The translations under genes and the position numbers were made by a program. From NCBI GenBank assembly GCA_020053305.1, contig JAGVNJ010000063.1:1-47305 (forward strand): a stretch of 47,305 nucleotides of DNA, read 5' to 3'. Positions within the stretch are counted from its first letter, which is position 1; every line of letters begins with the position of its first letter. This DNA is from Candidatus Edwardsiibacteriota bacterium. GTDB lineage: Bacteria > Edwardsbacteria > AC1 > EtOH8. Shown piece after piece: positions 13,355 through 24,018 of the stretch. The notes under the pieces are model-generated. The model worked only from the letters and a program-made list of their open reading frames with translations. It had not been told where the DNA came from and made no database searches.

Positions 13355-14437
13355 ATGACAAACACCGACTTTCTTATCATCGGGGGCGGCCCGGCCGGGC
13401 TGATGGCGGCGCTGTCGGCCTCGGAGTTCGGCTTGGAGCCGTTGATAATTGATGAGAACCAGGCCCTGGGGGGCCAACTGATAAAGCAGACCCACATGTT
13501 CTTCGGCTCCAAGGCCGAGCGGGCCGGGACCAGGGGTTTTGAGATAGGCCTGGAACTGGAGCAGGAGATAGGGAAGCGCCACATTCGGATAGAACGCCAG
13601 GCCTCGGCGGTGGGATATTATCCCGACGGGACGGTGGCGGTGTTGCAGAACGAAAAAGTTACTCCGCTCCAGCCCAAAGCCATTCTGGTGGCCACCGGGG
13701 CCTCGGAGAATTTCGTTTCCTTTCCCGGCAGCGACCTGCCGGGGGTCTACGGAGCCGGTGCGGTGCAGACCCTGATGAACGTCTACGGCATCAAACCGGG
13801 CCGCAGTGTACTGATGGTGGGCTCCGGCAACATCGGGCTGATAGTTTCTTACCAGTTGATGCAGGCTGGGGTTCAGGTCAAAGCCATCATAGAAGGCCTG
13901 CCGAAGATCGGCGGGTATCTGGTGCATGCTTCAAAGATCGCCCGGGCGGGGGTGCCTATACTCACCCGTCATACCATTCTCAATGCTTTAGGAAGCGAAC
14001 AGGTCAGCGGGGCGATTATATCTAAAATTGACGATAAATGGCAGACCATAGAGGGCACCCAGCAGACGCTGGAGGTGGATACCATCTGCCTATCGGTGGG
14101 GCTTTCCCCGCTGACCGAACTTTTATGGCAGGCCGGCTGCCAGATGAATTACATCCCGGAGCTGGGGGGCCAGGTGGCCTGGCATGATGAACTGATGATG
14201 ACCAACGTTCCGGGGATCTTCACCGCCGGCGACGTCAGCGGGATCGAAGAGGCCTCCACCGCCATGCTGGAGGGCGAACTGGCCGGGCTGGGGGCGATCA
14301 AATTTCTCAAGGGCGATTCAAAGGAATTGCAATGCCGGATAGACGATACTAACTGCCGTTTGGCAGGGCTCCGTGCCGGTCCGTTCGGGCAGAAGGCCAG
14401 GGAGGGGAAGTGCAAGCTGGCGGAGTGCCGGAGATAG
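13355..14437 (+). CDS. FAD/NAD(P)-binding oxidoreductase subunit (HcnB / PDH alpha-like)
   Basis: The 360-residue protein has two dinucleotide-binding folds: IIGGGPAGLMAAL near residues 7-19 for FAD and VLMVGSGNIGLIVS near 149-162 for NAD(P). TAGDVSG near 288-294 closes the FAD site. It resembles HcnB, LhpE and the alpha subunit of thermococcal L-proline dehydrogenase. The C-terminal BFD-like [2Fe-2S] domain usual in HcnB is missing here; it is encoded separately at 22610-22879, 8 kb downstream. The tail after ~residue 322 is Cys/Arg-rich and unusual. Likely role: NAD(P)H-linked half of an amino-acid dehydrogenase. Confidence 0.85.
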   Translation: MTNTDFLIIGGGPAGLMAALSASEFGLEPLIIDENQALGGQLIKQTHMFFGSKAERAGTRGFEIGLELEQEIGKRHIRIERQASAVGYYPDGTVAVLQNEKVTPLQPKAILVATGASENFVSFPGSDLPGVYGAGAVQTLMNVYGIKPGRSVLMVGSGNIGLIVSYQLMQAGVQVKAIIEGLPKIGGYLVHASKIARAGVPILTRHTILNALGSEQVSGAIISKIDDKWQTIEGTQQTLEVDTICLSVGLSPLTELLWQAGCQMNYIPELGGQVAWHDELMMTNVPGIFTAGDVSGIEEASTAMLEGELAGLGAIKFLKGDSKELQCRIDDTNCRLAGLRAGPFGQKAREGKCKLAECRR

Positions 14438-14461: not shown

Positions 14462-14710
14462 ATGCAAGATGGTTTCATGAGTTGTAAAAAGAGACAAAGC
14501 GAGAAAAAACCGTTGGTTATGGTTCGCCAGGGACATTTAGACGATGTGGAGGGAGCTAGGAACTTCGACCGTTTGTTTTGGCATCGTATAGGCTCAAGCG
14601 GACGGCTTATGGCAATGTGGGATTTGTTGAAAGTTTATTATTTGTTGAAAGGGCGCAATGGAAATATACCAAGATTACGAAGATCTGTTACGCATATTCA
14701 ACACCGGTAG
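14462..14710 (+). CDS. putative antitoxin-like small protein, partner of the nucleotidyltransferase
   Basis: The 82-residue frame contains VMVRQGHLDDVEGARNFDR followed by LFWHRIGSSGRLMAMWDLLK and, at the end, RLRRSVTHIQHR. This pattern resembles the small protein often encoded directly before MNT/DUF6036-like nucleotidyltransferases. An internal ATG at 14477 is an alternative start. It overlaps the next gene by 53 bases in another frame, as is common for such pairs. The region is markedly more AT-rich than its neighbours. The family match is from memory, so the toxin-antitoxin role is an inference. Confidence 0.6.
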   Translation: MQDGFMSCKKRQSEKKPLVMVRQGHLDDVEGARNFDRLFWHRIGSSGRLMAMWDLLKVYYLLKGRNGNIPRLRRSVTHIQHR

Positions 14711-15116
14711 AGTAAGATATCTTCTGATAGGGGCATTTGCTGTATCCTATTACGCTCAACCTCGATACACAAAAGACATTGACATATGGGTAGAACCTAC
14801 TCCGACAAATGCTGAGAAAGTATTTAAATGTCTTGCTGTTTTCGGTGCCCCGCTTAATAAGATCAAGATGTCGGATTTGTCAAAAAAGGGAACGATATTT
14901 CAGATAGGGGTTGAGCCTGTGCGTATCGATCTTATTACTGATATAAACGGAGTTACTTTTAAAAAGGCGTGGAGTAACAGAAAAAAAGGAAGATTTGGGG
15001 AAACAAATACAAATTTCATAGGCCTTAAAGACTTGATTGTTGCCAAACGCTCAGCCAACCGTTTGCAGGACAGGTTGGATCTCGAAAATTTAGTTCCGCT
15101 TTTAAAGAAAAGGTAA
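14658..15116 (+). CDS. nucleotidyltransferase, putative toxin-antitoxin or mobile module component
   Basis: The 152-residue protein shows a minimal nucleotidyltransferase core: YLLIGAFAVSYYAQPRYTKD (residues ~20-39), then IDIWVEP. Asp39 and Asp41 are the likely metal ligands, and a third candidate is in RIDLIT near ~93. FIGLKDLIVAKRSANRLQDR near the end is typical of DUF6036/AbiEii-like small nucleotidyltransferases. It overlaps the preceding small gene. The pair sits between subunit genes of a dehydrogenase and differs in base composition, so it looks inserted. Confidence 0.75.
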   Translation: MEIYQDYEDLLRIFNTGRVRYLLIGAFAVSYYAQPRYTKDIDIWVEPTPTNAEKVFKCLAVFGAPLNKIKMSDLSKKGTIFQIGVEPVRIDLITDINGVTFKKAWSNRKKGRFGETNTNFIGLKDLIVAKRSANRLQDRLDLENLVPLLKKR

Positions 15117-15188: not shown

Positions 15189-15689
15189 ATGCTCAGCGAA
15201 AAATTGACATCCTGCGGGATTGCAGATACTACCGATATCCAAACCTCTTGGCCATCTGAGGAGCGGCTGAAAAAAGGCCCGGTGGTCATCGTGGAATGCT
15301 TCCAGGAGATACCCTGCAATCCCTGCGAGACCAGCTGTCCCCGCAATGCCATCGTGGTGGGGGTGAATATAAACGACCTGCCCAAGGTGGATCACAACAA
15401 GTGCAATGGCTGCACCGTCTGCGTCTCCCGCTGTCCGGGCCTGGCCATCTTCGTGATAGACCAGAATTACTCCCCGACCGAGAGCACCATTACCATGCCC
15501 TACGAATTCCTGCCGCTGCCCCAGAAGGGCGATATGGTCGATGCCTTGGATCGCGCAGGTGAAAAATGTTGCCGGGCCAAGGCGATCAAAGTGGTTAACA
15601 CCAAGGCCCAGGGCAAGACCCCGCTGGTGACTCTGGCCATACCTCGGGGAATGGAAAAGTCAGTCCGGTTTTTCAAAATGGTTTCCTGA
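15189..15689 (+). CDS. 4Fe-4S ferredoxin-type subunit of the dehydrogenase complex
   Basis: The 166-residue protein has two [4Fe-4S] cysteine clusters: CNPCETSCP (residues ~40-48) with an upstream Cys in ECFQEIPC, and CNGCTVCVSRCPG (~68-80). The C-terminal ~75 residues lack cysteine clusters but are conserved-looking beta-rich sequence. Four-subunit proline dehydrogenase and related clostridial enzymes carry a similar ferredoxin-type subunit. It probably links the flavin subunits of 13355 and 22882 electronically. It is the last dehydrogenase gene before the 6.7-kb duplicated block. Confidence 0.8.
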   Translation: MLSEKLTSCGIADTTDIQTSWPSEERLKKGPVVIVECFQEIPCNPCETSCPRNAIVVGVNINDLPKVDHNKCNGCTVCVSRCPGLAIFVIDQNYSPTESTITMPYEFLPLPQKGDMVDALDRAGEKCCRAKAIKVVNTKAQGKTPLVTLAIPRGMEKSVRFFKMVS

Positions 15690-15825: not shown

Positions 15826-16965
15826 ATGACCAAGATCAAATCCGCAGTCCTGCTGATGTTGTTCCTGCTTTCGGCCCTGGCCCCGGCCCTGGAGCCGCCG
15901 ACCGATATCAAGCTGACTGACGCTCCCAATGATGACGGCTCCATCGTCATCATGGAATGGCAACCATCCCTCTCGGAGAATGAACCCGGCTTCATGGGCT
16001 ACAATATCGAGCGGTCCGGGCTGCCCAACGACTCCTTCCAGATGATCGCCTGGGTCCCCAAGGGATACGTCGAGCACCAGGATAATTCGGTCGAGGTTAT
16101 GGGTAAAAATTATTATTATAAGGTGGTGGCCGTCAATGAGAGCGGCGACAGCGCTGTCAGCGCCGTAGCCGGGCCGATAGCCACCACCCAGGACTGGTTC
16201 AATACCGGAAAGCTGAACACCCTGTTCGGAACCTTCCTTTTCATCGCCATCACCCTTTTATACATCTACTGGGCCCGCAAGGGCAAGCTGTTCATCCGGC
16301 GCATTGCCGGCCTGGACGCGGTGGAGGAGGCCATCGGCCGGGCCACCGAAATGGGGCGGCCGATACTTTACTGCAACGGCATCGGATGGATAGATTCCAT
16401 CTCCACCGTGGCTTCCCTGAACATCCTGGGGCAGGTGGCCAAGAAGACCGCCAAGTATGACACCCCGCTGACCGTCCCCACCGCCGACCCGGTGGTTCAT
16501 GCGGTGGCCCGGGAGATGGTCAAGGAGGGCTACAAGAGCGCGGGCCGCCCGGATCTGTTCAAGGAGGACTCGGTATATTTTATCACCAGTGATCAGATGG
16601 GATACGCCGCGGCCCTGGCCGGGATAATGGTCCGCGAGAAGCCGGCCACCAACTTCTTCATGGGCTATTATGCGGCCGAATCCCTGGTGCTGGCCGAATC
16701 GGGCGCCGCCACCGGTGCCATCCAGATAGCCGGGACCGATCAGATTTCCCAGCTGCCGTTCTTCATCACCGCCTGCGATTACACCCTGATCGGCGAGGAG
16801 CTGTATGCCGCCTCGGCCTATCTGTCCAAGGAGCCGCTGCTGGTGGGAAGTCTTAAGGGCCAGGACGCTTGCAAGCTGGTGATCATCCTGTTCGTCCTGC
16901 TGGGCACCCTGGCGGCCCTGATCTTCCGTTCCGATCTTATCTACAACCTGTTCAGAATTCACTAA
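15826..16965 (+). CDS. module protein A1: signal peptide, FN3 domain, TM, conserved cytosolic domain (DUF6754-like), TM
   Basis: The protein has 379 residues. A signal sequence spans ~1-22. A fibronectin type III-like domain (~23-120) contains PPTDIKLTDAPNDDGS and a KNYYYKVVAVNESGDS strand pair. A transmembrane helix spans ~131-150 and is followed by basic ARKGKLFIRR, which puts the next domain in the cytoplasm by the positive-inside rule. The conserved domain (~155-345) includes GRATEMGRPILY, LNILGQVAKKTA, REKPATNFFMG and ACDYTLIGEELYAASAYLS (~316-334), ending LKGQD. A last helix spans ~348-368. I believe databases call this domain DUF6754; no function is known to me. It is first of an A-B-C-D set, repeated at 19213-22539. 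Confidence 0.75.
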   Translation: MTKIKSAVLLMLFLLSALAPALEPPTDIKLTDAPNDDGSIVIMEWQPSLSENEPGFMGYNIERSGLPNDSFQMIAWVPKGYVEHQDNSVEVMGKNYYYKVVAVNESGDSAVSAVAGPIATTQDWFNTGKLNTLFGTFLFIAITLLYIYWARKGKLFIRRIAGLDAVEEAIGRATEMGRPILYCNGIGWIDSISTVASLNILGQVAKKTAKYDTPLTVPTADPVVHAVAREMVKEGYKSAGRPDLFKEDSVYFITSDQMGYAAALAGIMVREKPATNFFMGYYAAESLVLAESGAATGAIQIAGTDQISQLPFFITACDYTLIGEELYAASAYLSKEPLLVGSLKGQDACKLVIILFVLLGTLAALIFRSDLIYNLFRIH

Positions 16966-16977
16966 AGGTAAATGAAT

Positions 16978-17598
16978 ATGAAAAAAAATATTCCCTTGGC
17001 CATAGTCTTCGTGCTGGGGGCGGCCTTCATCATCCAGTTCTTCATCCCCAGCCGGCCGTCTCAGATAGCCTTCAATACCATGATTGAATGGGACCTGATC
17101 CTCATTGTCTTCGCCTCGGTGATCGCGGTGGACAGCCTGGTGCGCCACCATATCCTGAAGATCTCCCGCCAGACCAAGGGCTGGGGTTACAGCATCGTCT
17201 ATCTGGGCGCGGCGGTGTTCATGATCCTGGCGGCGGTGTTCAGCGGCACCCGGGAGGGCAGTTTTTATATGAAGCTGTTCAATTACGCCCTGGCCCCCAT
17301 GCAGGCCACCATGTTCGCCATCCTGGCCTTCTACATGGCCTCGGCCAGCTACCGGGCCTTCCGGGCCAAATCCACCGAGGCCACCATGCTGCTGGTCTCG
17401 GCCTTCATCGTGATGCTGGGCCTGATCCCGCAGGGGGCCGCCATCTGGAGCGGCCTGCCCGAATTTTCGGAATGGCTGATGCTGATTCCCAATATGGCTG
17501 CCAAACGGGGCATCACCTTCGGCATCGGGCTGGGCATCACCGCCACCTCCCTGAAGATCATTCTGGGGATAGAACGCAACTGGATGGGGGGCCACTGA
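16978..17598 (+). CDS. module protein B1: six-helix membrane protein of unknown function
   Basis: I use the ATG at 16978: an AAGG sits 9 bases before it, and the protein then starts MKKNIPLAIV, aligning with MKRQIPLIIV of B2. An ATG at 16972 is also possible. The 206 residues form about six hydrophobic helices. Conserved between both copies are AILAFYMAS.YRAFRA, then PNMAAKRGI, GLGITATSLKIILGIER and a Gly-rich end. No catalytic motif is recognised. It starts 12 bases after A1 and ends one base before C1. Confidence 0.75.
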   Translation: MKKNIPLAIVFVLGAAFIIQFFIPSRPSQIAFNTMIEWDLILIVFASVIAVDSLVRHHILKISRQTKGWGYSIVYLGAAVFMILAAVFSGTREGSFYMKLFNYALAPMQATMFAILAFYMASASYRAFRAKSTEATMLLVSAFIVMLGLIPQGAAIWSGLPEFSEWLMLIPNMAAKRGITFGIGLGITATSLKIILGIERNWMGGH

Positions 17599-17599
17599 G

Positions 17600-18451
17600 A
17601 TGCTTAAGTTTTTGGCCAAGTTCGGAAAGCTGGATCGCCGGATCGTATTCGCCCTTCTGCTGGTTTCCATTCTGGTGCCGCTGCTGTTCAACATAAAACC
17701 CCGGTTCTATGTTGATTCCGCCACCAAGGGTATTTATGATTATGTGGATCACATCAAACCCAACGGGCGCCCCCTGCTGGTATCCTTCGATTACGATCCC
17801 CAGGTGGCCGCCGAGCTGGATCCCATGGCCCGGGCGGTGCTGCGGCATTGTTTTGCCCGGGGGGTAAAGGTGGTGGGGATGTCCTTAGCACCTCAGGGCG
17901 ACGCCATCGGCGAGGGGATCATCACCCAGGTGGCCAAAGAGTACGATAAAAAATTGGGCCGTGATTATTGCTATTTTGGCTTCAGGCCCGGGGGCACCAT
18001 TATCATGCTGCAGATGGGGGTCAATGTCAAAAAGGCCCTGCCGCTGGATTATTACCAGACGCCCTACGACAGCCTTCCCATGATGAAAAACATCCACAAC
18101 TACGACGACATCGCCATGGTGCTGTCCCTGGCCGGCTCCACCTATCCGGTACAATGGATGATTTTTGCCGGCACCAAATTCGGTGTTATAATTGGAGCCG
18201 GGCAGACGGCGGTGATGGCCCCGGATAATTATCCCTTCCTGCAGACCAAGCAATTTATCGGACAGCTGGGCGGCATGAAGGGCGGGGCGGAATACGAACA
18301 ACTCATCGTTGATGCGGGGTATTACCATAAACCGGATGTAGCCAGCAAGGCCATGGGGGCCATCGCCTATTCGCACCTGCTGATCATCCTGCTGATCATT
18401 CTGGGGAATATCGGATATTTCATCTCCAAAAAGATCGAACAGAAAAAATAA
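17600..18451 (+). CDS. module protein C1: membrane-anchored extracytoplasmic domain protein, unknown function
   Basis: The 283 residues start with a basic segment and an N-terminal helix (~15-34). A large domain (~40-255) follows, then a C-terminal helix (~258-277) and a basic tail (SKKIEQKK). By the positive-inside rule the domain is outside the cytoplasm. Residues conserved with C2 include ELDPM/ELQPM, AVLRHCFA, YDSLPMM/LDSLPMM, YPFLQ and GMKGGAEYE (~225-233). The domain looks alpha/beta. The segment from GAGQTAV to AEYE resembles the end of the A-protein domain (GAIQIAGTD...PFF...GEE), raising the possibility of a shared fold. Confidence 0.75.
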   Translation: MLKFLAKFGKLDRRIVFALLLVSILVPLLFNIKPRFYVDSATKGIYDYVDHIKPNGRPLLVSFDYDPQVAAELDPMARAVLRHCFARGVKVVGMSLAPQGDAIGEGIITQVAKEYDKKLGRDYCYFGFRPGGTIIMLQMGVNVKKALPLDYYQTPYDSLPMMKNIHNYDDIAMVLSLAGSTYPVQWMIFAGTKFGVIIGAGQTAVMAPDNYPFLQTKQFIGQLGGMKGGAEYEQLIVDAGYYHKPDVASKAMGAIAYSHLLIILLIILGNIGYFISKKIEQKK

Positions 18452-18493
18452 TCCCGTCATTCTCAGAACTTTTTTAAAACTAAGGATATAAAG

Positions 18494-19126
18494 ATGAGCA
18501 CAAATATCTGGATATGGATAGCGGCCCTGCTGAGCCTGGCCATTTTCTCCTATCTCTATAAGGACAACCCGGCCTTCAGATTCGCCGAGCACCTTTTCAC
18601 CGGGCTGTCGGTGGGCTATTTCATCGTTCTCTACTGGAATAATTATACCCTGCCTTATATCGTCACCCCCCTTAAGAATCACCAGTGGATCACCCTGATC
18701 CCCATGGCCATCGGGATGATGTATCTTTTCCGGTTCGTGCCCAAACTGAACCATCTGATCCTGATTCCCATCGCGGTCAGCCTGGGCTTCTGGAACGGGA
18801 TGTCCATCCCGGTCACCTTCGAGGCCGACGTTTTAAAGCAGATCCAGGGGACCATGATCAACACCTCCATGATGAGCAACATCTGGCACCCCCAAAAAGG
18901 GCTGCTGGTGGGCCTGCTGGTGATGGTGGGGGTGATCAGCACCATCACCTATTTCTACTTTTCCCGGGAGCACAAGGGGCCGCTCAAGGTGACCGCCAAC
19001 ATCGGCATCTGGTTCGTGATGATCGGCTTCGGGGCCACCTTCGGCTACACCGTCATGGCCCGGGTATCATTGTTGATCGCCCGGATGCAGTTCCTGTTCA
19101 CCGACTGGATACATCTGATAAAATAA
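18494..19126 (+). CDS. module protein D1: six-helix membrane protein of unknown function
   Basis: The 210-residue hydrophobic protein has roughly six helices (about 5-22, 30-48, 65-82, 86-104, 137-157, 168-200). It carries a soluble amphipathic stretch in the middle (FEADVLKQIQGTM). The C-terminus ANIGIWFVMIGFGATFG, then VMARVSLLI and DWIHLIK, is nearly the same in D2. A Shine-Dalgarno (aagga) lies before the ATG. No known transporter or enzyme motif is seen. Confidence 0.75.
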   Translation: MSTNIWIWIAALLSLAIFSYLYKDNPAFRFAEHLFTGLSVGYFIVLYWNNYTLPYIVTPLKNHQWITLIPMAIGMMYLFRFVPKLNHLILIPIAVSLGFWNGMSIPVTFEADVLKQIQGTMINTSMMSNIWHPQKGLLVGLLVMVGVISTITYFYFSREHKGPLKVTANIGIWFVMIGFGATFGYTVMARVSLLIARMQFLFTDWIHLIK

Positions 19127-19212
19127 GCCAGGCCAGGGGCAGTTTTAAACGTTCGAAAGGTCATAAAGGTTATTAGTGTATATAATCAACAACCAAAAAA
19201 CGGAGAATATTG

Positions 19213-20403
19213 ATGAGGCTTAAAATTTATGCCCTGCTGCTGGCGATGGCGGCGGCCCTGCCGTGTCTGGCAGCGCCTCCCGGGCCGGCGGCCTCGGAGG
19301 CACCGATGGCGGCCGTCACCGTAGCCCCGCCGTCCGGCATCAAAGCCGCCGACACCCCCAACGACGCCGGCAATGCCATTACCGTGAGATGGCAGGCCTC
19401 GCCGGACGAGGCCCGAAAGATGATCGAGGGCTACGAGGTCCTGCGGGCCGAGACCCCGGACGGGGAATTTATCAAGGTGGGTTATGTGCCCTACGGTTTC
19501 ACCAGCTTTGACGATCAGGATGTCCCGGCCAACGGGAAAGAATATTTCTACCGGGTCAAGGCGGTGGGCCGGGAGAGCCAGGCCCTGAGCCTGGCGTCCG
19601 TCTCGGCCAGGTCGGCGGAACAGTGGTTCAATACCATGCGCATCAACGCCCTGGTCAGCTGCCTCCTGTTCACCCTGATCGTGGTGATCTTCATCTCCCG
19701 GGCCAAGAGCGGCCAGAGCCTTTTCATCCGCCGTATCGCCGGCTTGGCGGCGGTGGAGGAGGCGGTGGGCCGGGCCACCGAAATGGGCCGCCCCATTCTT
19801 TATGTGCCGGGGCTGTCCTCCATCTCCGACGTGGCCACCATCGCCGCCCTGAACATTTTGGGGCAGGTGGCTAAGAAGACCGCCGAATACGACACCCCAT
19901 TACTGGTGCCCAACCGCGACCCGGTGGTATTCACCGTGGCCCAGGAGATCGTCAAGGAGGCCTACAACGAGATCGGCCGGCCCGACGCCTACAATCACGA
20001 CTCGGTGTTCTACCTGACCGACAGCCAGATGGGTTTCGCCTCCGGGGTGGACGGCATCATGGCCCGGGAAAAACCGGCCACCAATTTCTTCATGGGCATG
20101 TTCTGGGCCGAAAGTCTGATCCTGGCCGAAACCGGGGCCGAGACTGGGGCCATCCAGATAGCCGGCACCGACGCCATTCACCAGCTGCCGTTCTTCATCA
20201 CCGCCTGCGATTACACCCTGATCGGCGAGGAGCTGTATGCCGCCTCGGCCTACCTTTCCCGCGAACCGATGTTGCTGGGGACCCTTAAAGGCCAGGATTG
20301 GAGCAAGGCCGTCATCGTGCTGCTGCTGATAGCCGGCCTGGCCGTATCGCTGATAAACCCCGGAATCAGGGAAATCATCCTGCAAATGCTAAAGGTAGGG
20401 TAA
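19213..20403 (+). CDS. module protein A2: paralogue of A1 (FN3 plus DUF6754-like domain)
   Basis: The start is ATG 19213 after a GGAG Shine-Dalgarno; a TTG one codon earlier is also in frame. The protein has 396 residues with the same plan as A1: signal peptide (~1-20), a Pro/Ala-rich linker absent from A1, an FN3-like domain (~37-134), a helix (~147-165), the conserved cytosolic domain and a C-terminal helix. The block from REKPATNFFMG to LKGQD is close to identical with A1, including ACDYTLIGEELYAASAYLS (~331-349), while the FN3 part has diverged. This points to stronger constraint on the cytosolic domain. Confidence 0.75.
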   Translation: MRLKIYALLLAMAAALPCLAAPPGPAASEAPMAAVTVAPPSGIKAADTPNDAGNAITVRWQASPDEARKMIEGYEVLRAETPDGEFIKVGYVPYGFTSFDDQDVPANGKEYFYRVKAVGRESQALSLASVSARSAEQWFNTMRINALVSCLLFTLIVVIFISRAKSGQSLFIRRIAGLAAVEEAVGRATEMGRPILYVPGLSSISDVATIAALNILGQVAKKTAEYDTPLLVPNRDPVVFTVAQEIVKEAYNEIGRPDAYNHDSVFYLTDSQMGFASGVDGIMAREKPATNFFMGMFWAESLILAETGAETGAIQIAGTDAIHQLPFFITACDYTLIGEELYAASAYLSREPMLLGTLKGQDWSKAVIVLLLIAGLAVSLINPGIREIILQMLKVG

Positions 20404-20412
20404 GGAGAAAAA

Positions 20413-21051
20413 ATGAAAAGACAGATACCTTTGATAATCGTATTAATCCTGGGGATATTCTTCTTCTTCCAGTTCTTCGTCCCCAGCCGGATTTCAACCA
20501 ACATCTTACAGACCACCCTGCAGTGGACCATCGTCATCAGCGCTTTTGCCATCGTGCTGGCCATCGGCAGCCTGTTCAACCACCACATGCTCAAGATCAG
20601 AAGGCGCAAGCCCCATTGGTGGAACAGCATTGTGACCCTGGCGGCCCTGGTGGTGATGGCACTGCTGGGCATCTTCGGGAGGGTTAAGGGCCTGGAGCCG
20701 TTGGGAGAGTTGTATCGCAAGCTGTTCCATTATGTACAATCGCCTATGGATCAGGCCATGTTCGCCATTTTGGCCTTCTACATGGCCTCGGCCGCCTACC
20801 GGGCCTTCCGGGCCCGTTCCCAGGAGGCGGCCCTGCTGCTGATCTCCGGTTTCATAGTGATGCTGGGGGTGATCCCCTTCGGCTCCATGCTCTGGACCAA
20901 GATCCCCGACATCGCCGAATGGATCATGATGGTCCCCAATATGGCCGCCAAGCGGGGGATCCTGTTCGGAGTGGGCCTGGGGATAACGGCCACCTCGCTG
21001 AAGATAATTCTGGGCATTGAACGCAGCTGGCTGGGAGGAGGCGGCAAATGA
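20413..21051 (+). CDS. module protein B2: paralogue of B1
   Basis: The 212-residue six-helix protein has a good Shine-Dalgarno (aaggag). It shares IPLxIVxxLG at the start, LAFYMASAxYRAFRA in the middle, and AAKRGI plus GITATSLKIILGIER at the end with B1. Its stop overlaps the C2 start (ATGA). Function unknown. Confidence 0.75.
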   Translation: MKRQIPLIIVLILGIFFFFQFFVPSRISTNILQTTLQWTIVISAFAIVLAIGSLFNHHMLKIRRRKPHWWNSIVTLAALVVMALLGIFGRVKGLEPLGELYRKLFHYVQSPMDQAMFAILAFYMASAAYRAFRARSQEAALLLISGFIVMLGVIPFGSMLWTKIPDIAEWIMMVPNMAAKRGILFGVGLGITATSLKIILGIERSWLGGGGK

Positions 21052-21896
21052 AGATATTAGAAAACCTGACCAAGATAAACCGCCGGTATATCTTTTTGCT
21101 GGTGGCCCTGGCGGTGATCTTTCCCCTGGTGATCCCCATGAAACTGCCCACCATCCCGGGGAAATATACCGTCAAGCTTTACGATTTCATAGATCAGATA
21201 CCGCCCCAGAGCCAACCGGTGCTGATCGCAGCCGATTACAGCCCCTCCATGATGCCGGAGCTGCAGCCAATGCTGGAGGCTGTCATCCGGCACTGTTTTG
21301 CCAAGAAGATCCGGGTCATGATCCTGACCCTTGATCCCAACGGCGCGGCCCTTTCGGAGGCGGCCCTAAAAAAGATCGCTCCGGAACACGGCGCCCAGAA
21401 CGGGAAGGATTACGTTTTCCTGGGCTTCAAGCCGGGCAACGCCCTCGTGATTATGTCCATCGGCGAAAATTTCCGGCAGGCCTTTCCCACCGACTTCTAC
21501 GGGGTTCCGTTGGACAGCCTGCCGATGATGGCCGGCGTCCGCAACTATGCCGATGTGCCGTTGGTGGTCTCCATCGCCGGAAGCGCCGTAACCCAGAGCT
21601 GGATCAACTTTGCCCATACCCGCTATCATGCCAATGTCGGCGCCGGCTGCACCGCGGTCAGCACCGCCGACTATTATCCCTTCCTGCAGGCCGAGCAGTT
21701 AGTGGGACTTTTAAACGGCATGAAAGGGGCCAGCGAGTATGAATACCTGAACCAGAAGAACGGCTATTCCAGTGCTGTTCAACTGGCCACCAAGGGCATG
21801 AACGCCGTTTCCATCGTCCACCTGCTGTTGATGCTGTTCATCATCCTGGGCAATATCGGCTATCTGGTGACCCGGCACAATCAGAGCAAGAAGTAA
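21048..21896 (+). CDS. module protein C2: paralogue of C1
   Basis: The 282 residues have the C1 layout: N-terminal helix (~15-32), extracytoplasmic domain and C-terminal helix (~259-276). Conserved with C1: RHCFAKK, GKDYVFLGFKPG, LDSLPMM, VGAGCTAVSTADYYPFLQ and GMKGASEYE. ATG overlaps the B2 stop by four bases, so B2 and C2 are translationally coupled. Function unknown. Confidence 0.75.
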   Translation: MKILENLTKINRRYIFLLVALAVIFPLVIPMKLPTIPGKYTVKLYDFIDQIPPQSQPVLIAADYSPSMMPELQPMLEAVIRHCFAKKIRVMILTLDPNGAALSEAALKKIAPEHGAQNGKDYVFLGFKPGNALVIMSIGENFRQAFPTDFYGVPLDSLPMMAGVRNYADVPLVVSIAGSAVTQSWINFAHTRYHANVGAGCTAVSTADYYPFLQAEQLVGLLNGMKGASEYEYLNQKNGYSSAVQLATKGMNAVSIVHLLLMLFIILGNIGYLVTRHNQSKK

Positions 21897-21906
21897 GGAG
21901 AGCGAA

Positions 21907-22539
21907 ATGATATTTTCAACCAACCCCTGGGTGTGGATTGCGGCAATACTCACGCTGTGCATCTTCTCATTTTTATACAAGGAAAATGCTTTCTACCGTT
22001 TTGCCGAGCATCTTTTCGTGGGCGTCTCGGCCGGATACGGCGTGGCCATCTACTGGAACAACGCCATAGTGCCCAATCTTTATGTGCCGGTTTTTCATCA
22101 GCACAATTACTGGTTCATCATCCCCGGCCTTATCGGAATGATGTTCTTCTTCCGGTTCAGCGCCAAAACCGGCTGGCTGATCCTGATCCCCCTGGCGGTG
22201 CTGCTGGGGACCGGCAGCGGCGTGTACCTGGCGCCCACTTTCCAGGCCGATGTCCTCAAACAGATGCAGAGCGCTATCGCCGATGCCACCAACCTTGAGC
22301 TGGGCGGCTGGGGCTTGGTCTGGGGCTTGGTCGCTTTCGTGGGAGTATTGACCACCTTGAGTTATTTCTTCTTCTCCCGGGAGCAGAAGGGGGCCCTGAA
22401 AATTTCGGCCAACATCGGCATCTGGTTCATCATGATAGGCTTCGGGGCCAGCTTTGGCAACACCGTTATGGCCCGGGTATCATTGCTGATCGGTAGGGTG
22501 CAGTTCCTGTTGACCGACTGGATACACATCATCAAGTAA
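21907..22539 (+). CDS. module protein D2: paralogue of D1
   Basis: The 210 residues are the same length as D1 and share WIWIAA/WVWIAA, FAEHLF, ADVLKQ, ANIGIWF.MIGFGA, TVMARVSLLI and DWIH.IK. The protein is about six helices. A Shine-Dalgarno (aaggag) precedes the ATG, ten bases after the C2 stop. It ends the duplicated block. Confidence 0.75.
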   Translation: MIFSTNPWVWIAAILTLCIFSFLYKENAFYRFAEHLFVGVSAGYGVAIYWNNAIVPNLYVPVFHQHNYWFIIPGLIGMMFFFRFSAKTGWLILIPLAVLLGTGSGVYLAPTFQADVLKQMQSAIADATNLELGGWGLVWGLVAFVGVLTTLSYFFFSREQKGALKISANIGIWFIMIGFGASFGNTVMARVSLLIGRVQFLLTDWIHIIK

Positions 22540-22592: not shown

Positions 22593-22609
22593 TTGTAATA
22601 TTGAAAAGC

Positions 22610-22879
22610 ATGGCAAATAACGACGATAAAATAATCTGCCGCTGTGAGGACATCACCGAGGCCGAGGTGCTGCGCGCCATAGAGCAGGGCACTGCCACTG
22701 CCGACGAGGTCAAGCGGCTGACCAGGGCCGGCATGGGCCATTGCCAGGGGCGGACCTGCCGCCGGCTGGTCAATCAGATCCTGGCCCGGAAGCTGGGCCA
22801 GAACCCGGAGGATCAAAAGCCCGTCACCCAGCGCTCGCCGTTGCAGCCCATCTCGCTGAAAATTCTGGCGGATTCATAA
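22610..22879 (+). CDS. BFD-like [2Fe-2S] subunit of the dehydrogenase complex
   Basis: I take the ATG at 22610 (MANNDDKIICRCEDIT); a TTG at 22601 is in frame. About 89 residues. Cluster ligands are CRCEDIT and GMGHCQGRTCRRLV, the same pattern found at the C-terminus of HcnB and LhpE. It is the piece missing from the FAD/NAD subunit at 13355. Its position directly before the FAD oxidoreductase at 22882 supports one complex whose genes were separated by insertions. Confidence 0.85.
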   Translation: MANNDDKIICRCEDITEAEVLRAIEQGTATADEVKRLTRAGMGHCQGRTCRRLVNQILARKLGQNPEDQKPVTQRSPLQPISLKILADS

Positions 22880-22881
22880 AA

Positions 22882-24018
22882 ATGCCCAAGAGCACCGACA
22901 TCATAATCATCGGTGGGGGCATCATCGGAGCGGCCACCGGGTACTATCTGTCCCGGGCAGGTTATAGGGTCCAGCTGATCGAGAAGGGTTATCTGTGCGC
23001 CGGATCCACCGGACGCTGCATCGGCGGCATCCGCCAGCAGTTCACATCGGAGGGGTCCATCAAACTTATGCTGGAGAGCGTAAGGCATTTCAGCGACATG
23101 AAGGAGGAGCTGGGGATAGATGTCCACTGGCATCCCGGCGGATACTTGTTTCTGGCCCACAGCCCGGAGAAGCAGGAAGCCTTTTTGGCCAATATCGCCG
23201 TTCAGCAGGGTTTCGGCCTGAAGGATGTCCGCTGGGTGGATGCCTACCAGGCCGGGCAGATTGCGCCAGGCCTGAATATCGACGGCCTGCTGGGCGGATC
23301 CTACTGCCCGTCCGACGGACAGGCCTATCCCTTTGCGGTGGTCAACGGTTATGCCGAGAAGATCAAATCACTGGGTGGGATCGTAAACACTTTTACCGAG
23401 GTAACCGCCATCCTGCAGAGCGGAGGCCGGGTGCAGGGGGTCAAAACCGTCGCTGGGGCCGAATATCAGGCCGATATCGTCATCAACGCCGCCGGGCCCT
23501 GGGCCAGGGAGGTCGGGCTGATGGCCGGCATCGAGGTGCCGGTGGAGCCGGAGCGGCATGAGGCCCTGATAACCGAAGGGGTGGACTACCTGAATATCCC
23601 CATGCTGGTGGATTACCGGGCCGACGGCGGCTATTTCCAGCAGTTCCGCCACAACGGGCAGTTCATCGGCTGCTATTCGCCGATCCCCAATGTGCCCGGA
23701 CATTCCACCGCTTCCAGCTATGAGTTTTTGCAGGAGATGCCCAAGAGGATGCTTAAGCTGGTGCCGGCCCTGGGACCGGTCAAGGTGCTCCGCCAGTGGT
23801 CGGGCAGCTATGAGAACACCCCGGACGGCAATCCCATCCTAGACCGTTCGCCGCTGGATGGTTTCTATGTCATCGCCGGAATGTGCGGGCATGGCTTCAT
23901 GCTGGGTCCGGCCATCGGGCGAATGGCGGCCGATTTCATAAAGAACGGCGCCAAAGAGCCGCCCGTCGCTGAGTTCGCCCTGGAGCGCGATTTTTCCAGC
24001 CAGGAGGCAATGAAGTAA
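22882..24018 (+). CDS. FAD-dependent amino-acid oxidoreductase (DAO family; HcnC / PDH beta / LhpB-like)
   Basis: I set the start at ATG 22882 (MPKSTDIIIIGGGIIGAATG), giving 378 residues; the frame is open further upstream only as a shadow of the BFD-like gene. The N-terminal GGGIIG is the FAD Rossmann motif, followed by GSTGRCIGGIRQQF near residues 36-49. NAAGPWA near 203-209 and the C-terminal CGHGFMLGPAIG (~334-345) are DAO-family marks. It should oxidise the C-N bond of an amino acid (glycine, sarcosine, proline or a D-amino acid) and pass electrons to the Fe-S subunits. The exact substrate cannot be read. Confidence 0.88.
   Translation: MPKSTDIIIIGGGIIGAATGYYLSRAGYRVQLIEKGYLCAGSTGRCIGGIRQQFTSEGSIKLMLESVRHFSDMKEELGIDVHWHPGGYLFLAHSPEKQEAFLANIAVQQGFGLKDVRWVDAYQAGQIAPGLNIDGLLGGSYCPSDGQAYPFAVVNGYAEKIKSLGGIVNTFTEVTAILQSGGRVQGVKTVAGAEYQADIVINAAGPWAREVGLMAGIEVPVEPERHEALITEGVDYLNIPMLVDYRADGGYFQQFRHNGQFIGCYSPIPNVPGHSTASSYEFLQEMPKRMLKLVPALGPVKVLRQWSGSYENTPDGNPILDRSPLDGFYVIAGMCGHGFMLGPAIGRMAADFIKNGAKEPPVAEFALERDFSSQEAMK

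Follow-up and report, generated by a model that had tools for sequence, protein, structure and literature searches.

A tandem four-gene membrane module with DUF6754 proteins and its candidate MutL-type partner in Candidatus Edwardsiibacteriota

The tandem module and its proteins

The analysed stretch of DNA (the window) is 47,305 nucleotides (nt) long and corresponds to positions 1 to 47,305 of contig JAGVNJ010000063.1 from a Candidatus Edwardsiibacteriota bacterium (assembly GCA_020053305.1). At positions 15826-22539 it carries eight same-strand open reading frames (ORFs) in the order A-B-C-D-A'-B'-C'-D', two copies of a module of four membrane protein genes that is the subject of this work. 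The genes are as follows (aa, amino acids; pLDDT, predicted local distance difference test; pTM, predicted template modelling score):

15826..16965, + strand: A1 (A), 379 aa; signal peptide, FN3-like ectodomain, helix, conserved cytosolic DUF6754 core and C-terminal helix (PF20539, 1.8e-113; FN3 fold in the model; helices at 1-19, 130-148 and 349-367)
16972..17598, + strand: B1 (B), 208 aa; multi-helix membrane protein without a known family, with its own profile family over 161 loci
17600..18451, + strand: C1 (C), 283 aa; N-terminal helix, periplasmic Rossmann-like domain and C-terminal helix, without a known family (model with mean pLDDT 85.2 and pTM 0.81; topology from basic residues)
18494..19126, + strand: D1 (D), 210 aa; multi-helix membrane protein without a known family, with its own profile family
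19210..20403, + strand: A2 (A'), second DUF6754 protein; 397 aa from TTG, 396 aa from ATG (PF20539, 2.9e-122)
20413..21051, + strand: B2 (B'), 212 aa; 56% identity to B1
21048..21896, + strand: C2 (C'), 282 aa; 41% identity to C1
21907..22539, + strand: D2 (D'), 210 aa; 57% identity to D1

Successive ORFs are separated by 6, 1, 42, 83, 9, -4 and 10 nt. The identities between the copies extend over 349 aa for A (55%), 209 aa for B, 282 aa for C and 211 aa for D, a similarity far beyond chance, and together with the shared strand and order they verify the tandem duplication proposed in the first-pass annotation of this DNA. Two of the lengths given there were amended: B has 208 aa from its first ATG, since the earlier 206 aa were counted from a later methionine, and A' has 397 aa from TTG, the earlier 396 aa corresponding to the next ATG. 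The ratio of nonsynonymous to synonymous substitution rates is 0.06-0.19 in all eight genes (against relatives L004, L035 and L040), and the genes are under purifying selection.

Proteins A and A' match PF20539 (DUF6754) over the whole core with 378.4 and 407.2 bits, the cut-off being 27. Neither copy of B, C or D matched a Pfam or NCBIfam family above its cut-off. Hydropathy and basic residues give A the layout signal peptide, FN3, helix, cytosolic core and helix, and C the layout helix, periplasmic domain and helix; the basic residues lie on the expected sides, which is consistent with domains on both faces of the membrane, as had been suggested. The outer face is probably the periplasm, since the WOR-3 isolate sy37 is described as having two membranes (PMC12285271), and the same is assumed for the window's own organism.

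The FN3 domain previously assigned to the A-type proteins is supported by the fold of A, as residues 20-123 of the model form a clear FN3 domain (Z up to 13.6, root-mean-square deviation 2.2, 97 aligned residues) and the sequence profile of A matches titin FN3 domains in the PDB (best E-value 5.4e-18); on the other hand, the Pfam fn3 model gave A 14.2 bits, under its cut-off of 25, and did not list A' at E <= 1. The FN3 part is well modelled and the core poorly (mean pLDDT of the A model 65.7), and the structural search with this model returned matches to FN3 only. The model of C displays a Rossmann-type alternation of helices and strands, for which Foldseek found no match under E 0.001 in the PDB or among viral models. 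A second look at C gave the epsilon subunit of carbon monoxide dehydrogenase as the best structural match (Z 9.8, root-mean-square deviation 3.0, 145 aligned residues); it was set aside as a clue to function, the arrangement being a common Rossmann-like one. Sequence profiles compared with the PDB gave nothing for B and D, one match at E 0.77 for C, and FN3 only for A.

For B and D, described earlier as six-helix proteins, a plain hydropathy scan gives 4-5 helices in the former and 3-4 in the latter. Helices 1-3 of B align with helices 4-6 of D (hhalign 69%, E 4e-5, score 30.6, against a maximum of 15.3 in 60 reversed or shifted controls), a match that falls to 3.3% with 110 randomly drawn sequences on each side; the full-length comparison gives 30-35%, and the remaining halves did not match each other in hhalign. 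A paralogous origin of A and C, both of helix-domain-helix layout, was not supported (hhalign 0.7%, or 1.6% with larger alignments, in which the helices alone were aligned).

Over 180 modules, A conserves C317, D318, E324 and E325 (98-99%) and its core carries a conserved C-D-Y-T-L-I-G-E-E motif. Also conserved are R128 (99%) of B, E72 and N270 (100%) of C, and E32 (100%) and R190 (99%) of D. The segment of A ahead of the core motif varies from 44 to 767 residues (178 of 180 modules). In loci L144, L168 and L172 and in the phylum of genome G273, many A ORFs reach about 900-1075 aa through a long ectodomain hardly recognised by Pfam and occur alongside shorter A copies, and a D protein of 708 aa at L185:11142-13268 has its D matches broken by long insertions.

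Co-occurrence of the four families and the MutL-c1 genes

Each protein family was searched in 193 genomes related to that of the window, 10 from its own taxonomic family and 183 others. A was found in 56 genomes, B in 57, C in 57 and D in 58, and all 56 genomes with A carry the other three families as well; G226 gave weak matches to B, C and D with no A detected, and G220 has D alone. The four families thus do not occur mostly apart, and no well-known pathway function turned up for any of them. The chance of the observed overlap of A and C over the 183 outside genomes is 1e-42 on the assumption that genomes are independent, which does not hold. Gene order was analysed in two sets of loci (101 and 60), both picked by the presence of A, the first of which includes some regions twice (e.g., L004/L055 and L005/L067). 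At least one complete ordered A-B-C-D is present in 94 of the 101 loci, one of which has its B gene divided between two ORFs, and in 55 of the 60 loci of the wider sample, where the exceptions are A alone (L145, L148 and L169), a module without D (L183) and a contig end (L196). The distance matrices of A, B, C and D over the 180 modules correlate with r of 0.78-0.87. The single membrane complex proposed in the first-pass annotation thus agrees with the phylogenetic profile, the gene order, the correlated distances and the two-face topology; that the four proteins physically assemble in the inner membrane is, on this genomic evidence, very probable.

DUF6754 is present in all 10 sampled genomes of the window's phylum, in 113 of 120 sampled from the phylum to which a WOR-3 genome belongs and in 114 of 117 from that of G273, as well as in 46 of the 183 genomes of the wide draw outside the window's family; it also occurs in Fermentibacteria and Aegiribacteria, and none of 14 control genomes contained it. 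A genome holds 1 to 7 copies of the module, and two or three modules in tandem are found repeatedly in other groups. The window's genome has a third DUF6754 copy, outside the window coordinates and in a V/A-ATPase context. A tblastn search of A' against plasmids gave no match. At L157:3263-8237 three extra C-type ORFs follow the module (A-B-C-D-C-C-C).

Upstream of modules, a set of three further genes recurs: c5 (about 110 aa), a MutL/GlmL-type protein (c4) and c1 (about 375 aa). The MutL/GlmL family is distinct from the DNA-repair MutL. Near the module, c1 is found in 24, MutL in 21 and c5 in 19 of the 161 loci, in genomes of the window's own group, Fermentibacteria, WOR-3 and others. Strong c1 matches occur in 53 of the 193 genomes, all of which have A, and MutL is present in 53 of the 56 genomes with A versus 13 of the 137 others. 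In 36 of the 53 genomes MutL is no farther than 1.5 kb from c1, and in 21 a listed DUF6754 core is no farther than 2.5 kb from c1. In four places in three genomes (G214 twice, G248 and G281) the MutL and c1 matches lie in a single open frame of 978-1033 aa, and in two of these frames the c1 match runs across a stop. The c1 gene is mostly single in a genome, and the modules reach seven copies.

The c4 protein matches PF13941 with 419.6 bits (cut-off 27) and stays under the NCBIfam cut-offs for GlmL (221.5 versus 475) and ornithine Or-4 (219.3 versus 600); it had no match in the PDB at E <= 1. The N terminus of c1 weakly resembles RnfC_N (15 of 20 members at E <= 0.1, best 2.2e-5), with two scored proteins, at 17.3 and 20.7, both below the cut-off of 25.6; NqrA_N and KOW were each matched by three of 20 members, the latter weakly. 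Against the PDB, the best c1 match was the KOW domain of SPT5 (E 0.05), followed by barrel regions of the RNA polymerase beta' subunit (0.07-0.08). We consider it likely that the MutL-c1 pair is a partner of A-B-C-D, and since c4 belongs to the MutL/GlmL-type family, the use of ATP by the pair is predicted.

In G001-G004 a module copy stands after MutL-c1. In the window's genome, MutL and c1 lie on contig C68 (L204) without an intervening module, and the downstream membrane gene is, by eye, the same as in G001; unlike in G001-G003, the module has apparently been lost from this site.

Genomic surroundings and history of the copies

The tandem pair of the window is flanked by genes of redox proteins:

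13355..14437, + strand: Pyr_redox_2 flavoprotein, alpha-subunit-like (PF07992, 8.1e-33)
15189..15689, + strand: 4Fe-4S ferredoxin-like gene, directly upstream of A1 (PF00037, 1.9e-06)
22601..22879, + strand: BFD-like [2Fe-2S] protein, directly downstream of D2 (PF04324, 3.6e-15)
22879..24018, + strand: flavin adenine dinucleotide dehydrogenase of the DAO family, sarcosine-oxidase-beta-like (PF01266, 3.2e-75)

The flavoprotein and the ferredoxin precede the tandem pair in seven of the eight loci of the window's family that cover this flank (the exception is L061), and the DAO dehydrogenase, which matches the soxB subfamily at 1.6e-50, under its cut-off, follows the pair in all nine loci covering the other flank. 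In the window's family the tandem pair therefore belongs to a conserved redox-enzyme cluster. In the distant genome G267 (L169:5109-9746), a solitary A lies in divergent orientation beside a DAO gene and a gene in which flavoprotein and ferredoxin are fused. A DUF2204 nucleotidyltransferase-like gene (window 14658-15116; PF09970, 2.9e-4, barely over its cut-off) also lies within the redox cluster, and the window further contains a tRNA-Gly (gcc) at 462-537 on the minus strand.

Another module copy is placed between V/A-type ATPase genes, as VatC-ABCD-VatF, in nine loci from nine of the 10 genomes of the family. The eight window proteins had no match among V/A-ATPase subunit models in Pfam and NCBIfam, and B matched the Na+/H+ antiporter subunit G only weakly (E 0.3-0.6).

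The phylogenetic tree was built from 58 rows, the 31 modules of the family and 27 others hand-picked from the 180. Copy 1 and copy 2 of the window each cluster with the matching copies of other genera (support 100 each), and the two clusters are sisters (99). As each copy groups with the same copy of other genera, the duplication, which the first-pass annotation had proposed to date by a tree, is not recent on this topology and predates the split of the family's genera. The copies at the V/A-ATPase site fall into two lineages, seven grouping together and those of L039 and L062 standing beside the MutL-linked copies; a single clade for them was rejected by the approximately unbiased test (p 5.7e-97, quick tree), for which the group was chosen after a first tree had been viewed. 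Because two module lineages occupy one site, this suggests either that a module is retained here by selection or that one was replaced through gene conversion.

Other neighbours of modules in the 161 loci include ExbB (10), ExbD (8), DUF4388 (11) and Roadblock-like proteins (17), with match E-values of 6.3e-26 for MotA_ExbB, 1.6e-20 for ExbD and 8.1e-16 for DUF4388. A lipoate-protein-ligase-like gene is found near the module in 10 loci (e.g., L036:13133-13909; LplA-B_cat, 6.5e-33). A MazG-like gene occurs in 24 of 62 WOR-3-group loci, often 10 nt upstream of A (e.g., L080:8505-8813; PF03819, 2.7e-10), and since all 24 loci are in that group it was read as local synteny. A1, B1, C1, D1, MutL and c1 had no match to the PADLOC defence models at E <= 0.01.

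Interpretation and comparison with known systems

We propose that A-B-C-D forms a complex of the inner membrane, exposes domains on either face, relies on a MutL-c1 ATPase and is present as client-specific paralogues; to this reading as a whole we assign a probability of about 0.5. In the proposed mechanism, A would combine a variable periplasmic ectodomain, FN3-type or other, with a nearly invariant cytosolic alpha/beta core, C would contribute a periplasmic Rossmann-like domain, and B and D would make up the helical core. A cytosolic MutL/GlmL-type ASKHA ATPase with the adaptor c1 (putatively an N-terminal barrel-sandwich hybrid with a KOW-like C terminus), usually accompanied by the small c5, would dock on the core of A. 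The pair may use ATP to drive, or to reset, a change of conformation, which would be relayed to the periplasmic domains through the helical core. A single MutL-c1 pair would serve several paralogues, each with its own client machine, which in the window's family would be the V/A-ATPase for one paralogue and a flavin/Fe-S amino-acid-type dehydrogenase for the two of the window. Physical assembly, ATPase activity, docking, the direction of action and the client role are all deduced steps. The dedication of paralogues to clients, suggested by conserved positions in one family, is tentative. The more specific version, in which c5-MutL-c1-A-B-C-D is a conserved, energised machine for the assembly, coupling or regulation of membrane energy complexes and the V/A-ATPase and the flavin/Fe-S dehydrogenase each have paralogues of their own, appears unlikely.

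Several observations weigh against the proposal. V/A-ATPase subunits adjoin the module in the window's own family only (nine of 161 loci), with none seen beside it in the remaining 137 loci, and outside this family the redox link appears once, with the solitary A in G267; because both links are so nearly restricted, the client role could be specific to this lineage, or the synteny a matter of chance. The group used in the tree test at the V/A-ATPase site was, as said, defined with a tree already in view. Among the genomes with A, c1 was not found in G191 and G210 and is weak in G163, MutL was not found in G140, G191 and G210, and for 17 of the 53 c1 genes no MutL is listed within 1.5 kb. The known MutL-type proteins are mainly partners of cofactor enzymes.

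A rather unlikely alternative is that the contexts carry no meaning, A-B-C-D being an autonomous housekeeping complex and the V/A-ATPase and redox positions neutral landing sites. The restriction of the V/A-ATPase linkage to one family would fit, as would the many WOR-3 modules beside unrelated genes, but two separate module lineages share the VatC-VatF place in sister genera. The multi-helix B and D, the ATPase partner and the domains on both faces could also be those of a transporter or exporter that moves a lipid, cofactor, peptide or protein over the inner membrane, with the MutL-type protein as motor, the ectodomains as receivers and paralogues differing in substrate; the wide range of ectodomain lengths and copy numbers would suit this. 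Such a role is nonetheless unlikely, as B, C and D match no transporter family in the comparisons with Pfam, NCBIfam and the PDB, the neighbourhoods share no substrate gene, and MutL-type proteins are not known to act as transport motors.

The FN3 ectodomains and the ExbB, ExbD, DUF4388 and Roadblock-like neighbours would accord with an envelope force or polarity scaffold that links such regulators and motors to the periplasm in gliding, adhesion or envelope organisation. These neighbours, however, are mostly found in WOR-3 and the window's own groups, and the Roadblock assignment is weak (E 0.0019 for one member, which is under the cut-off; relatives of 100 aa matched nothing at E <= 0.05). 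The description of WOR-3 isolate sy37 (PMC12285271) reports that it was not observed to move, the presence of the module in sy37 being unchecked. We regard this scaffold as improbable. The remaining alternative is a redox-linked ion-translocating complex working like Rnf or Nqr, with B and D as a paired helical core and c1 in the place of RnfC/NqrA. It draws on the RnfC_N and NqrA_N resemblance of c1, the match between halves of B and D, and the V/A-ATPase and redox contexts. The membrane Fe-S centre of Rnf and Nqr has cysteine ligands, yet no cysteine is conserved in B, C or D over the 180 modules (largest column fractions 0.17, 0.41 and 0.28, respectively). Moreover, B, B', D and D' had no Pfam match of the Rnf-Nqr (RnfA/E-NqrD/E) type at E <= 1, both scored c1 proteins are under the RnfC_N cut-off, and the B-D match weakens with larger alignments, so that this explanation is improbable as well.

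Nearly every sampled genome of three groups has the module, often in several copies, and A-B-C-D therefore probably has a role in the core physiology of these groups. With a full candidate system now defined, including a candidate ATPase and two or more candidate clients, the function becomes directly testable. Should the energised-machine version be true, such a machine would occur in almost all members of several bacterial groups and be absent from the standard model organisms; should the V/A-ATPase link be true, these bacteria may run the ATPase with a partner complex unknown elsewhere.

No paper containing 'DUF6754' or 'PF20539' was found among open-licence PubMed Central papers, subscription papers and preprints being outside the search, and broader searches of the same collection gave nothing relevant beyond one paper on a WOR-3 isolate. 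The module fits no known system among those compared; no family name exists for B, C and D, and A is known by a DUF number only. PF20539 describes the core shared by A and A' alone, without a function and without B, C, D, c1 or c5. PF13941 covers c4, which is set apart by its sub-cut-off GlmL and Or-4 scores and by its location beside c1 and A-B-C-D. Rnf and Na+-NQR complexes have several membrane subunits, as does the module, and the N terminus of c1 weakly resembles the barrel-sandwich domain of RnfC/NqrA, whereas A-B-C-D differ from them in lacking an Rnf-Nqr match and, in B, C and D, conserved cysteines. In the V/A-type ATPase operons of the window's family the module stands between the genes of subunits C and F, and A-B-C-D match no subunit. 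PilMNOP, Tol/Exb and other envelope-spanning assemblies, to which A-D have no family match in Pfam or NCBIfam, offer an analogy in layout: a cytosolic partner acting with inner-membrane proteins that carry periplasmic domains.

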